Below, one piece after another: positions 10,258 through 13,496 of a stretch of DNA of 54,588 nt (within the stretch, counting starts at the first letter, position 1; each line of letters begins with the position of its first letter). A program made the position numbers and the translations under genes. A model generated the notes under the pieces. The model did no database searches. It was given only the letters and a program-made list of their open reading frames with translations, and was not told the DNA's origin. The stretch lies in contig JAGCGS010000029.1 in NCBI GenBank assembly GCA_017649485.1, positions 1 to 54,588 of the forward strand, given 5' to 3'. This DNA comes from Bacteroidaceae bacterium. Lineage in GTDB: Bacteria; Bacteroidota; Bacteroidia; Bacteroidales; Bacteroidaceae.

Positions 10258-10265
10258 TATTTTTG
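10258..10265 (+). promoter_or_regulatory. -7 box for the secreted protein / HprK-like / PqqD cassette
   Basis: TATTTTTG lies 22 bases before the chosen ATG at 10288 and matches TAnnTTTG. No clear -33 TTTG at the expected spacing. Confidence 0.55.
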
Positions 10266-10287
10266 CAAAGAAAAGTGATTGTTGAGA

Positions 10288-11937
10288 ATGAGTGATATGA
10301 GGAATTTTGATAAATTGCAAACGCTTAAGTGTTTGGGCTGGATGGTGGTGATGATGATTACTGCCATTACATCTTGGTCACAAGTGGTCATGACACCTAC
10401 CACTACTACGTGGTCGGGCGAGTACACAGTCTCGGGAGATGTCACAATTGATGGTAGTGGTAATCCTTCAGTGAGGCTTGAAGATGATACAACCATTAAT
10501 CTCAATGAAGGTGCTACGTTTACTGTCAACGGACGTGTTGATCTTTATGGCGCAGGTGATACCTCTGGCAATCATTCCCTTACCATCACAGGCAGTGGAA
10601 CTATGATTGTCAACTCCTCATCTGCATCAGGTTGCATTAGCGGTTTAGATTGTACGTTGATTATCAATGGCGGCAATGTTAATTTAAATTATACTGGTAT
10701 TGAAGAAAACGTATATGCCGCTCCTGTTGATGTTGTCATCAGTGGAGGGAGTCTGTTTACAAACAAGAGGATTAATGGACTTCTTAATGATTTCATCATC
10801 GCCGATGGCAAGTATTATAAGGATGAAACGACAGGTAAGTGCTACATTGGTACTCTATCCTTAAAAGAAAAGGAAGAAATCATTGCTCATAGCTTTGTAG
10901 AGACCACAAAGGATGAATACAATAGCAACAACTGGCCACATGATGTAACAGCCTCTGTGGATAGTGGAATAGTTGAGATATGGGCATTTATCGGTACTGG
11001 TATCAATACAGATTTACCTGAAGGCTCGATAGCTGTTGCTCCTGATACAAAAGTGGAGTTGAGCATTGAACCGAAAATTGGTTATAAGGTTATGTCTGTT
11101 ACGGTGAAGTGTACTGATAATACAATTATTGATGTTGCTTATAATGCTGACAGTGATGACTATAGTTTCACGATGCCAAAATCCGACGTAAAAGTGAACG
11201 TGACTACAGACGAAGCCAACTATCCGGAACTTCCACTTACTTGGAATGGAAATGTGGCTACTCATACTTTTGACATAAAATATGCTATCTATTCATTTAC
11301 TCCTTCGCAGGATGGTTATTATGCCTTCGGTAACGATAAGCCAAGTGATGTTGATATTTATGTTTTTGATCAGACCTCGGACTTAAAATCCTCTTCAAAT
11401 GGCTATGCGTTAGCTGCGGGTAAAACATATTATATTAATATTTATCCCCAAACGGAGAATGATTCTGGCACCTTTGTCCTAACAGTAACATATACACCTC
11501 CAACTGATTTTACTCTTACAGCTAATAAAGCTACCTTGAATGGTGTTCCAAAGTTTTGGGCAACGTTCTATCATCCTTCTTTTAGCTATCAGCTGCCAGA
11601 CGGAGCTTTGGCACTTTATATGAAAAGCGATCATGCACTTTATTTGGTGGGTGATGATGGTAGCGTTATTCCTGCTAATACTCCAGTTATCATTATGAAG
11701 GAAATAGGTGGCGAGGCTGATTCGGTTAATGTTGAGCTGACAGCTTTACAAAACAACCCTGATATTACGGTGGATGACAACTATCTGCATGGTACGGCGT
11801 ATAATACGGATGTTTCCACTTTATCTTTAGAAGATGATAAAAATGTGTACGTGATGAGTAAAGATGGAGATAGCGTTTGTTTTAAAGCTTATACAAATAT
11901 AATCCCTGCATATAAGGCATATTATGTGGAAGAATAG
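10288..11937 (+). CDS. Secreted multidomain protein, first gene of the HprK-like/peptidase/PqqD cassette
   Basis: I do not recognise a named family. The chosen ATG gives 549 residues; a TTG three codons upstream is a poorer start. The N-terminus carries a signal peptide (hydrophobic LGWMVVMMITAITS, then SWSQ). Residues to about 170 are rich in short Gly/Asn/Thr beta-strands (TISG-, IING-, VISG-) resembling right-handed beta-helix repeats. Around 240-270 YSFTMPKSDVKVNV matches the Listeria-Bacteroides/InlB B-repeat type. About 275-370 looks like a pre-peptidase C-terminal domain (YSFTPSQDGYYAF, then AAGKTYYINIYP). The C-terminal part (FWATFYHPSFSYQLPDG, ending PAYKAYYVEE) resembles tails common in Prevotella secreted proteins. 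The next gene starts 11 bases later, suggesting an operon. Confidence 0.75.
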   Translation: MSDMRNFDKLQTLKCLGWMVVMMITAITSWSQVVMTPTTTTWSGEYTVSGDVTIDGSGNPSVRLEDDTTINLNEGATFTVNGRVDLYGAGDTSGNHSLTITGSGTMIVNSSSASGCISGLDCTLIINGGNVNLNYTGIEENVYAAPVDVVISGGSLFTNKRINGLLNDFIIADGKYYKDETTGKCYIGTLSLKEKEEIIAHSFVETTKDEYNSNNWPHDVTASVDSGIVEIWAFIGTGINTDLPEGSIAVAPDTKVELSIEPKIGYKVMSVTVKCTDNTIIDVAYNADSDDYSFTMPKSDVKVNVTTDEANYPELPLTWNGNVATHTFDIKYAIYSFTPSQDGYYAFGNDKPSDVDIYVFDQTSDLKSSSNGYALAAGKTYYINIYPQTENDSGTFVLTVTYTPPTDFTLTANKATLNGVPKFWATFYHPSFSYQLPDGALALYMKSDHALYLVGDDGSVIPANTPVIIMKEIGGEADSVNVELTALQNNPDITVDDNYLHGTAYNTDVSTLSLEDDKNVYVMSKDGDSVCFKAYTNIIPAYKAYYVEE

Positions 11938-11948
11938 GTTATAAAAAG

Positions 11949-12809
11949 ATGAAAAAAACAAGATATTATCAAGTGGCAGATCATGTGTTCGTGGTAGATG
12001 CCGAAGAAAGACTTTTCGAACTGATGTACAATTACGAGCCTTTCAGTTGTGAGGCTGTGAACCAAGTGGCATTTTCGTTGTCCATCGGCGAAGGCGAGTC
12101 ACTTGATTATGTTGAAGAAATCAGACAAGATGATGAAGGACAAGAGATTGTGTGCGGCCATACCTCGGAAGGCAATCCTGTATTTGCATTCTCTTTATTG
12201 CAGCTGGCTGCTGGTTGGCTGGTATGTAGAGCTGACTACTTTGAGGCTCAACTTTTCACTACCGGTTACGAACAGAAGTTTGCCGTAGACAATGCTTTAA
12301 TGGTTTTGTTTGCTTTGGCAACAGCCAGGCAGAATACAGCTTTGTTCCATGCTTCGACTGTGATGAAAGATGGCATAAGCTATCTGTTTCTTGGACAGAG
12401 CGGTACTGGCAAGAGTACGCATTCGGCATTATGGCTACGATATATTGATGGAACTGAATTGGTTAACGATGACAATCCTGTGGTGAGAATTACACCTGAA
12501 GGCAAAGCTATTGTCTATGGTTCACCTTGGAGCGGCAAGACTCCTTGTTATCGGAATGTGAGTTACCCTATCGGTGGTATGGTACAATTGAGCCAGGCAC
12601 CTTATAATAGCATCAGGCGTCTGGGTGGTGTTGAGGCGTATGTGTTTTTGATGTTAAGCATTAGCGGAAAACGGTGGGACAAAGGCATTGCCGACGGATT
12701 ACACCAAACAGAGAATTGGTTGGCAACGCATGTGCCTACATGGTTTTTGGAATGCTTACCCAATGAGGAAGCTGCAAAATTATGCAGATTGACAATTGAG
12801 CATGGATGA
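11949..12809 (+). CDS. HPr-kinase-like P-loop protein
   Basis: A 286-residue protein related to the kinase domain of HprK/P and PEP carboxykinase-like proteins. The P-loop GQSGTGKST lies at 149-157, a metal-binding NDDNP at 173-177, and the GSPWSGK loop at 191-197. The N-terminal 110 residues do not resemble the regulatory domain of true HPr kinase, and no HPr gene is nearby. Such short homologues occur in RiPP clusters; one in lasso peptide clusters phosphorylates the precursor peptide, so a peptide or protein kinase role is possible here. It overlaps the next gene by 8 bases. The substrate is unknown. Confidence 0.8.
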   Translation: MKKTRYYQVADHVFVVDAEERLFELMYNYEPFSCEAVNQVAFSLSIGEGESLDYVEEIRQDDEGQEIVCGHTSEGNPVFAFSLLQLAAGWLVCRADYFEAQLFTTGYEQKFAVDNALMVLFALATARQNTALFHASTVMKDGISYLFLGQSGTGKSTHSALWLRYIDGTELVNDDNPVVRITPEGKAIVYGSPWSGKTPCYRNVSYPIGGMVQLSQAPYNSIRRLGGVEAYVFLMLSISGKRWDKGIADGLHQTENWLATHVPTWFLECLPNEEAAKLCRLTIEHG

Positions 12810-13227
12810 CATAGTTATAATACAGGAAGCTATCAAGTTGGTAGAGGAGGGCGTGAGTGTGACGCTACCTGTTCGAGGTAATAGTATGCTGCCCTTTATC
12901 ATTGGCGATCAGGAAAGCGTAGTGCTGCAAAAGCCGGAACAGCCTAAAGTGGGTGATGTGGTGTTGGCATGGGTGGATGGCTATCGCTATGTGATTCATC
13001 GCATAATCCGTGTGGAAGGTGAAAAGATAACGTTGATGGGAGATGGTAACCTTGTGTACGGCGAGCATTGTACCATAGACGAAGTGAAGGCTATGGTGAC
13101 ACATGTGGTAACAGCTGACGGGCATACCTATTATTTGTATGGCTGGTGGCGGCGATGTGCTGTAAAGATTTGGTGGTTATTGAAACCTTTTAGAAAGTAT
13201 TTATTAGCAATATATAGACGATTATGA
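12802..13227 (+). CDS. S24/S26-type serine peptidase-like protein
   Basis: A 141-residue protein with the fold signature of the signal peptidase/LexA clan. The nucleophile region is RGNSMLPFI (Ser28). The second catalytic position reads YVIHRI (His66), where bacterial signal peptidase I has Lys; a Ser-His pair is the form seen in SipW/ER-type enzymes. There is no N-terminal transmembrane helix, but residues 110-141 form an aromatic and basic hydrophobic tail that may contact the membrane. The ATG at 12802 is preferred over an upstream TTG. It overlaps the HprK-like gene by 8 bases and the PqqD gene by 4. It may mature a peptide or protein modified by its neighbours. Confidence 0.75.
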   Translation: MDDIVIIQEAIKLVEEGVSVTLPVRGNSMLPFIIGDQESVVLQKPEQPKVGDVVLAWVDGYRYVIHRIIRVEGEKITLMGDGNLVYGEHCTIDEVKAMVTHVVTADGHTYYLYGWWRRCAVKIWWLLKPFRKYLLAIYRRL

Positions 13228-13496
13228 AACTGAAAAAAGGATTTGTTTTGCGCGAAGTGTGCGGAGAACAGGTAATTATGGGTGAAGGCCTCGGTGCCAT
13301 AAACTTTGGACGTTTGTTATGCCTCAATGAAACATCAGCTTGGCTGTGGAAACAAGCTTCTGAGATGGGAGAGTTTACCATCGACTCTTTGACCGACAGG
13401 CTGACAGAGGAATATGATGTGTCGGTAGCAGAAGCAAAGGCAGATGTGGAGGGTATTGTTTCCGAGTGGCAGCAAGTGGGAGTGGTGGATTTATAA
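13224..13496 (+). CDS. PqqD-like protein (RiPP recognition element fold)
   Basis: A 90-residue protein of the PqqD family, which binds leader peptides of ribosomally made, modified peptides and presents them to a modifying enzyme. The order of elements fits: N-terminal beta strands (GFVLREVCGEQVIM), the LCLNETSAWLWKQA segment and C-terminal helices with DVEGIVSEWQQVGVV. It is the last gene of the cassette and overlaps the peptidase gene by 4 bases (ATGA). No radical SAM enzyme, cyclase, transporter or obvious short precursor is adjacent. Confidence 0.8.
   Translation: MKLKKGFVLREVCGEQVIMGEGLGAINFGRLLCLNETSAWLWKQASEMGEFTIDSLTDRLTEEYDVSVAEAKADVEGIVSEWQQVGVVDL

Follow-up and report, generated by a model that had tools for sequence, protein, structure and literature searches.

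Lasso peptide gene clusters are among the closest described systems to the one considered here. According to PMC10368454, the leader motif YxxPxL of lasso precursors spans positions -17 to -12, Thr is usually found at -2, and the clusters can include K, N and D genes; the same paper describes a kinase of a lasso system that phosphorylates the precursor peptide, and reports that neither phosphorylation nor removal of the leader changed much when the leader Tyr, Pro or Leu was exchanged singly. PMC8498205 describes a nucleotidyltransferase that adds one or two hexoses to a phosphorylated lasso peptide in vivo. In this study, we have analysed a stretch of 54,588 nucleotides from a Bacteroidaceae bacterium (NCBI GenBank assembly GCA_017649485.1, contig JAGCGS010000029.1, positions 1 to 54,588 of the forward strand), referred to below as the window, which is contig C37 of a draft genome (G000; 2.6 Mb, 83% complete). 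It carries a trio of overlapping genes that encode an HprK-like kinase, a Ser-His peptidase and a PqqD-like protein. We consider it probable that this trio forms half of a system split between two loci, which processes short, ribosomally made peptides with a lasso-like leader and for which no lasso cyclase was found. At the level of sequence, we have shown that the trio belongs to a conserved operon, that a family of precursor peptides exists and co-occurs with the kinase, and that no lasso protease B2 over the cut-off accompanies it. The features of the window locus are as follows.

10258..10265, plus strand: possible Bacteroidota -7 box, TATTTTTG; weak sequence match
10288..11937, plus strand: SEC, exported-looking protein of 549 amino acids from the ATG at 10288; hydrophobic N-terminus, no Pfam match over the cut-off
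11949..12809, plus strand: HprK/PEPCK-type P-loop kinase homologue (K-like), 286 amino acids; motifs GQSGTGKST and NDDNP, invariant P-loop residues
12802..13227, plus strand: S24/S26-like Ser-His peptidase, 141 amino acids, proposed leader peptidase; PF00717, Ser28 and His66
13224..13496, plus strand: PqqD-like leader-binding protein (predicted recognition element, B1-like, of a ribosomally synthesized and post-translationally modified peptide [RiPP] system), 90 amino acids; PF05402, best PDB match TfuB1

An earlier note, made from the sequence alone, had described four plus-strand genes led by one for an exported protein of 549 residues. The open reading frames (ORFs) and the hydrophobic N-terminus of SEC agree with this description: the kinase and peptidase genes overlap by 8 bases, the peptidase and PqqD genes by 4, and a gap of 11 bases separates SEC from the kinase gene. 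Both motifs that the note had read in the kinase were found, and residues G152, G154, K155, S156, T157 and D175 are invariant in 29 aligned sequences. The kinase matches HprK/PEPCK-type models below their cut-offs only, chiefly over the P-loop part; HPr kinase/phosphatase models gave 15.8 bits against a cut-off of 240 (TIGR00679) and 11.7 bits against 33.3 (PF07475). Membership in the SynChlorMet or HprK-related kinase A families was rejected on scores of 18.6 bits against 125 (ScmC) and 17.8 bits against 200 (TIGR04352). The peptidase scored 31.1 bits against Peptidase_S24 (PF00717; cut-off, 23.3) and 28.2 bits against TIGR02227, under its cut-off of 47, and shows sequence similarity to models of LexA and of signal peptidases. 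The Ser28-His66 pair proposed in the note is invariant in 20 aligned sequences; by sequence, the protein therefore has both the family match and the Ser with a Lys/His partner that define S24 or signal peptidase I-like peptidases. The predicted PqqD fold was likewise recovered, with 48.7 bits against PF05402 (cut-off, 23.4).

A kinase scan of a genome collection gave 583 confirmed loci, of which the best 80 were used, so that the sample is biased to close relatives. These 80 loci carry the record titles Prevotella, Segatella, other Bacteroidales or Fibrobacter and come mostly from ruminant metagenome-assembled genomes. Judged from gene content and order, the kinase, peptidase and PqqD genes belong to an operon that is conserved in Bacteroidales and Fibrobacter. 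When all frames were searched with profiles, the genes repeatedly followed one order, namely kinase, peptidase, PqqD and ABC exporter; NTP_transf_5, where present, lies before or inside the operon, and the one such gene tested scored 140.2 bits against PF14907 (cut-off, 31.2). Operon members were counted at the 65 loci that have at least 3.5 kb after the kinase gene: PqqD was present at 59, the peptidase at 54 and NTP_transf_5 at 15. An ABC exporter of about 540 amino acids is encoded at 49/65 loci and also at the second kinase locus of the genome that holds the window, so that the note's remark that no transporter is visible is true locally but does not extend to the system. All four of kinase, peptidase, PqqD and ABC exporter were found at 46 of the 65 loci, and the exporter was absent at 16. 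The profiles were built partly from the same loci, which aids detection but cannot create gene order, and these frame-wise counts replace a clustering count in which families F5, F7 and F8 were minus-strand ORFs, read as antisense over the peptidase and PqqD genes. The loci with Fibrobacter titles (L077, L081, L082, L084, L086, L088 and L106) show kinase identities of 52 to 57% and hold one to three precursors, mostly after a large exported-looking protein; if the titles are right, these relatives suggest transfer between phyla in the rumen.

Clustering of small ORFs round the cassettes produced one peptide family, represented at 11 loci, and a variant rich in Cys at 3 loci with radical SAM genes. 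Iterated profiles raised this to 43 ORFs in 33 loci and, once further loci were added, to 79 distinct sequences. The precursors have the leader YxxPx(M/V/L)xV...LLx(A/G/S)(S/T), followed by a variable core. Among 41 aligned precursors, the leader Pro is invariant and Tyr occurs in at least 90%. The position of the lasso Leu is mostly Met, Val or Leu. Residue counts for the 79 sequences were anchored on Pro, which is therefore present in 79/79 by construction; three precursors without a clean anchor were left out of the position counts, and 74 entered the comparison of leader and core. Ser or Thr stands at one of positions 18 to 21 after the Tyr in 74 of the 76 anchored precursors (overall Ser/Thr frequency, 0.13); the two positions before it are hydrophobic in 92% and 75%, and a median of 16 residues (range, 3 to 64) follows it. 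The core is less conserved than the leader in 11/11 pairs whose leaders are at least 80% identical (mean identity, 0.45 versus 0.94), with core identity still at least 0.88 in three of these pairs. At L170, three tandem paralogues have leaders that are nearly or fully identical up to MIAAS and then different cores. Pfam returned zero matches for the 5 precursors tested and NCBIfam zero for 10. By sequence, the general hallmarks of a RiPP system, namely a conserved leader, a variable core, and genes for a predicted leader-binding protein and putative modifying enzymes, are all present.

At four kinase loci, a radical-SAM-like gene lies beside the precursor and PqqD genes; it was recognised by clustering at L079, L085 and L095 (one member was Pfam-tested) and by a CxxxCxxC motif only at L120, where the precursor match is weak (E = 0.0016). 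The precursor core is rich in Cys at L079, L085 and L095. No radical SAM gene adjoins the window trio, and none was recognised in most of the related loci. The longer precursors at L141, L142, L122, L154 and L156 end in a similar acidic tail (S-D/E-LE...DILT), which is perhaps a second recognition element.

The link between the cassette and the precursors was approached from two sides, matches to PDB sequences and co-occurrence. The PqqD profile, searched against the PDB at E <= 0.1, matched only TfuB1 (6jx3_B, E = 9e-5) and a lasso PqqD chaperone (9x90_B, E = 0.02). The precursor profile, at E <= 5, had a single match, the TfuA-Leader in chain A of 6jx3 (E = 0.1). Two separate profiles thus pick both chains of one structure, and this is the best evidence that the PqqD-like protein reads the precursor leader. 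We take TfuB1 and TfuA to be part of a lasso pathway, of which only the recognition step would be shared here.

Within the 80 kinase loci, 36 precursor ORFs were found in 27 loci, compared with 2.6 expected at the density of the window's own genome, a figure that would be about 6 at the highest density seen in an isolate (19 in about 3.5 Mb). Nineteen precursor ORFs, from 16 loci, lie no more than 300 bp from the cassette, 15 on the same strand and four on the opposite strand. Across the genus, the kinase was detected in 67 and the precursor in 42 of 149 genomes, with both in 39 (p = 2e-14). When the five genomes that had contributed loci and rows to the precursor profile (G000, G006, G013, G045 and G123) were removed, 34 of 37 precursor-bearing genomes had the kinase (p = 1e-12), as did 17 of 18 when only precursors at E <= 1e-4 were accepted (p = 2e-6). 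A survey of the order (295 genomes from 183 genera), in which at most eight first-look candidates per genome were scored, found the kinase in 41 genomes at E <= 1e-10, the precursor in 15 and both in 12 (p = 4e-9); without the window's own genome, 11 of 14 precursor-bearing genomes had the kinase (p = 2e-8). As a control, cas1, present in 71 of the 149 genus genomes, was linked neither to the kinase (p = 0.62) nor to the precursor (p = 0.47). All five isolate genomes with the kinase (Segatella baroniae B14 and DSM 16972, Prevotella sp. tf2-5, Prevotella sp. MA2016 and Prevotella aff. ruminicola Tc2-24) also contain precursors: between 2 and 19 matches per genome at E <= 0.05, of which the weakest are possibly due to chance.

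The earlier note had seen no small precursor beside the trio, and for the window this holds: a hidden precursor was sought by a profile search of its ORFs of 22 to 140 amino acids, and none was found at E <= 0.01. Its suggestion that the trio acts on a distant peptide has gained support, since short peptides sharing a lasso-type leader tend to be encoded in the genomes that have the kinase, and since six precursors (E = 3e-10 to 2e-4) were detected on other contigs of the window's genome, two on C3, two on C31, one on C9 and one on C40; the C40 precursor is itself a row of the search profile. All six lie within about 210 bp of a same-strand lipoprotein-like gene, as read by eye from its N-terminus. 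Contig C40 also encodes a second kinase, 44% identical to that of the window, and, on the other strand, PqqD, NTP_transf_5 and ABC exporter genes but no peptidase gene. With the peptidase profile (E <= 1), the window copy was the only one in this genome and an orthologous copy the only one in the nearest relative, G013; at completeness values of 83% and 89%, respectively, an unassembled peptidase copy is possible. The window and C40 loci are therefore complementary, because the sole detected peptidase is encoded in the window and the nucleotidyltransferase and exporter on C40. The C20 and C17 loci of the relative are complementary in the same way, with the nucleotidyltransferase and exporter on C17. 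The relative's peptidase locus has the order SEC homologue, lipoprotein-like genes, precursor, another lipoprotein-like gene, NTP_transf_5, kinase, peptidase and PqqD, and the genes downstream of PqqD are the same as in the window. The block of about 7.3 kb that lies there between SEC and the kinase gene is absent from the window; we tentatively favour its loss in the window lineage.

Other features of the genome were also noted. On C40 (L115, 9812-10710), the second-locus PqqD gene overlaps a sugar-transferase-like gene that is followed by glycosyltransferase-like genes, as read by eye, and peptide and polysaccharide genes may be neighbours there. In the run of surface-protein genes after the C40 precursor, a lipoprotein-like Peptidase_M64 protein is encoded (L115, 1894-3912; 60 bits against a cut-off of 26). 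At a contig end (L004, G000:C21:101108-103951), a PqqD-like match of 22.4 bits, just below the cut-off, adjoins a member of radical SAM cluster F12.

Exported proteins are a regular feature of the precursor loci. Using in-house hydrophobicity and lipobox rules rather than SignalP, we found an exported-looking gene on the same strand, no more than 300 bp away, for 60 of the 79 precursors; 10 have only neighbours cut at the 5' end and count as unknown, 8 have none that looks exported, and 1 has no neighbour. The lipobox rule alone was satisfied for 32 of the 79 (14 unknown, 32 other, 1 none), compared with a baseline of 90/945. Counted by gene, 57 of 85 testable precursor neighbours look exported (18 more are cut) versus 234 of 945 other genes (p = 8e-15). 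Ten exported-looking proteins from precursor gene runs, mostly direct neighbours, were scanned with Pfam: BspA-type leucine-rich repeats scored above the cut-off in two and slightly under it in a third, a fourth contains leucine-rich repeats of another type, one is a Peptidase_M64 protein, and five gave zero matches at E <= 0.01. The connection to secreted proteins that the earlier note had proposed is thus right at the level of the family, and it runs via the precursors rather than SEC.

We postulate that the PqqD-like protein would bind the YxxPx(M/L/V) leader of precursors encoded on other contigs and that the HprK-like kinase would phosphorylate a Ser or Thr of the peptide, either the conserved one at the boundary of leader and core or one in the core. 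The Ser-His peptidase would replace the lasso protease B2 and cut at LLx(A/G/S)(S/T), a conserved hydrophobic pair followed by two small residues; this site is proposed because signal peptidases prefer to cut next to small residues. Decoration and export of the product would fall to the nucleotidyltransferase and the ABC exporter of the second locus, on C40; the product is the peptide itself, which would be a short, probably linear phospho- or phosphoglyco-peptide. The exported surface protein usually co-encoded with the precursor is a likely partner, receptor, carrier or immunity protein.

Several observations weigh against this two-locus reading. At 53 of the 80 kinase loci, the compared flanks contain no precursor; in the genus, the precursor was undetected (E <= 0.01) in 28 of 67 kinase-bearing genomes, and the kinase in three precursor-bearing ones. 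The genomes are related and many are incomplete, so that the p-values are too small and an absent gene may be unassembled. The TfuA match is weak on its own, and the leader Tyr lies about 20 residues from the boundary Ser/Thr, compared with 15 in lasso leaders (-17 to -2). The kinase falls under every curated cut-off. Five matches to the B2 family PF13471 below the cut-off (43 to 62 positions, in frames of 273 to 452 amino acids) all come from kinase-bearing genomes. Because the window holds no precursor, action in trans is assumed; the phosphorylated Ser/Thr, the cut site and the nucleotidyltransferase's role are what we infer from the sequences alone.

Four other explanations were weighed against the two-locus reading. 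That the trio is a decayed remnant, left functionless when the window lost the precursor, lipoprotein-like and nucleotidyltransferase genes, is unlikely: it would account for the absence of the 7.3-kb block and for the missing nucleotidyltransferase and exporter genes, but all three frames are intact with overlapping starts and retained active-site residues, six precursors and a second kinase locus persist in the genome with no other peptidase copy found, and the indel could have had either direction. The earlier note had suggested that the trio might phosphorylate, process or present SEC. The position of SEC, 11 bases upstream of the kinase gene, would permit cotranscription, its homologue in the nearest relative (46% identity) lies upstream of the same locus, and exported proteins are over-represented beside precursors; however, this homologue is about 7.3 kb from the kinase gene, with lipoprotein-like genes, a precursor and a nucleotidyltransferase gene in between, and it is the only one inside the compared flanks at 81 kinase loci (the window plus the best 80 of 583) other than SEC itself. 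Four further sites in the genome match the C-terminal 150 residues of SEC, and other genes precede the cassette elsewhere: at four Prevotella loci (L087, L089, L093 and L098), the gene directly before it presumably encodes valyl-tRNA synthetase, and the site after that gene is a possible preferred site of the cassette. SEC, so rarely found beside the cassette, was rejected as the substrate; it is probably not what the trio acts on, and we give the proposal little credence.

A true lasso pathway, with the cyclase and protease B2 encoded elsewhere or diverged beyond recognition, would explain the lasso-type leader, the B1-like PqqD protein, the HprK-like kinase, NTP_transf_5, the ABC exporter and the five PF13471 matches below the cut-off. 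Two defining elements of the class are indeed present, a PqqD-like B1 by sequence (PF05402 over the cut-off, TfuB1 as best PDB match) and, in the family although not in the window, precursors with a YxxPxL-type leader. However, PF13471 has no match in the window's genome and is over the cut-off in only 1 of the 149 genus genomes, the kinase-free G039. An Asn-synthetase-like cyclase (PF00733) was not found in a cluster in the seven genomes searched. All seven have PF00733 matches, with one frame of 555 to 604 amino acids each in G000, G013 and four of the five isolate genomes (G441 to G444) and a weak match only in the fifth, G445; from their length and number, we read the long frames as ordinary asparagine synthetase. 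The only such frame of G000 (555 amino acids) lies on contig C54, which has no kinase or precursor match, and the situation in G013 is similar; in G443, the frame shares a contig with precursors, about 156 kb away. Short, weak matches in 229-amino-acid frames lie about 20 kb (C40 of G000) and 18 kb (C17 of G013) from the second kinase. If the core is assumed to start two residues after the boundary Ser/Thr, Gly1 occurs in 15/76 precursors and Asp or Glu at positions 7 to 9 in 24/76. With B2, the cyclase and ring-fitting core positions missing, the system falls outside the lasso class definition; a canonical lasso pathway was rejected on B2 and the core residues, and a concealed one seems to us very improbable. 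The note had reasoned that the first gene would be a chance neighbour if homologous trios always came with a cyclase and a short precursor and never with this secreted protein; short precursors do accompany such trios, but neither a lasso protease nor a cyclase was found together with the two. Finally, the short peptides might be accessory or regulatory peptides of surface-protein operons, tied to the kinase through surface-protein control. The exported-looking neighbours of 60 of the 79 precursors fit this idea, but the split into leader and core, the TfuA leader match, and the PqqD and radical SAM partners are typical of RiPPs, and we regard it as equally far-fetched. The two-locus peptide system remains our preferred reading.

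Upstream of SEC, the octamer that the earlier note had taken for a -7 box is present at 10258 to 10265; the promoter claim is weak, because the window's plus strand holds 35 copies of TAnnTTTG and the longer pattern TTG-N20-TAnnTTTG has no match at this octamer.

If the two-locus reading is correct, it would account for the scattered PqqD, HprK and S24 genes, and for short ORFs without annotation, in Bacteroidota from the rumen and gut. It would also tie the modification of peptides to surface proteins with a possible role in contact with fibre, hosts or rivals. In a rumen survey (PMC13289728), the lasso rule requires PF13471 together with Asn_synthase (or two named models), so that the system would escape that rule; the survey also had a rule for RiPP recognition elements, which might flag the PqqD protein. 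In the available text of a survey of Bacteroidales RiPPs (PMC10352776), the word PqqD appears once, in the reference list. Among titles and the beginnings of abstracts in the open-licence literature, we met no description of this combination, and an earlier description elsewhere is possible.

Some further known systems were compared with the trio. SynChlorMet (ScmC/ScmD) and HprK-related kinase A (TIGR04352) systems presumably pair a kinase with a PqqD-type protein and are alike in these families, but the scores are far below the cut-offs. Radical SAM RiPPs with PqqD are similar at four kinase loci only, unlike the window trio, which has no adjoining radical SAM gene. Lasso clusters with K and N genes (paeninodin, pseudomycoidin and bsf of Bradymonas) share a YxxPxL-like leader, a discrete PqqD-like B1, an HprK-like kinase, a nucleotidyltransferase and an ABC exporter. 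Unlike them, the present system shows neither a transglutaminase-like B2 above the cut-off alongside the kinase nor a dedicated Asn-synthetase-like cyclase that was found; it has instead an S24/S26-like Ser-His protease gene, a longer leader spacing, cores without regular ring-forming residues, and precursors dispersed beside surface-protein genes. In our view, the system is close to being its own RiPP class. We tentatively propose a distinct class of Bacteroidota and Fibrobacter in which short linear phospho- or phosphoglyco-peptides would be made with the help of a kinase, a protease resembling signal peptidases and a leader of the lasso type. Every peptide would be dedicated to the surface lipoprotein or adhesin encoded beside it, and a genome would have from one to about twenty such peptides, on which one or a few cassettes would act in trans.

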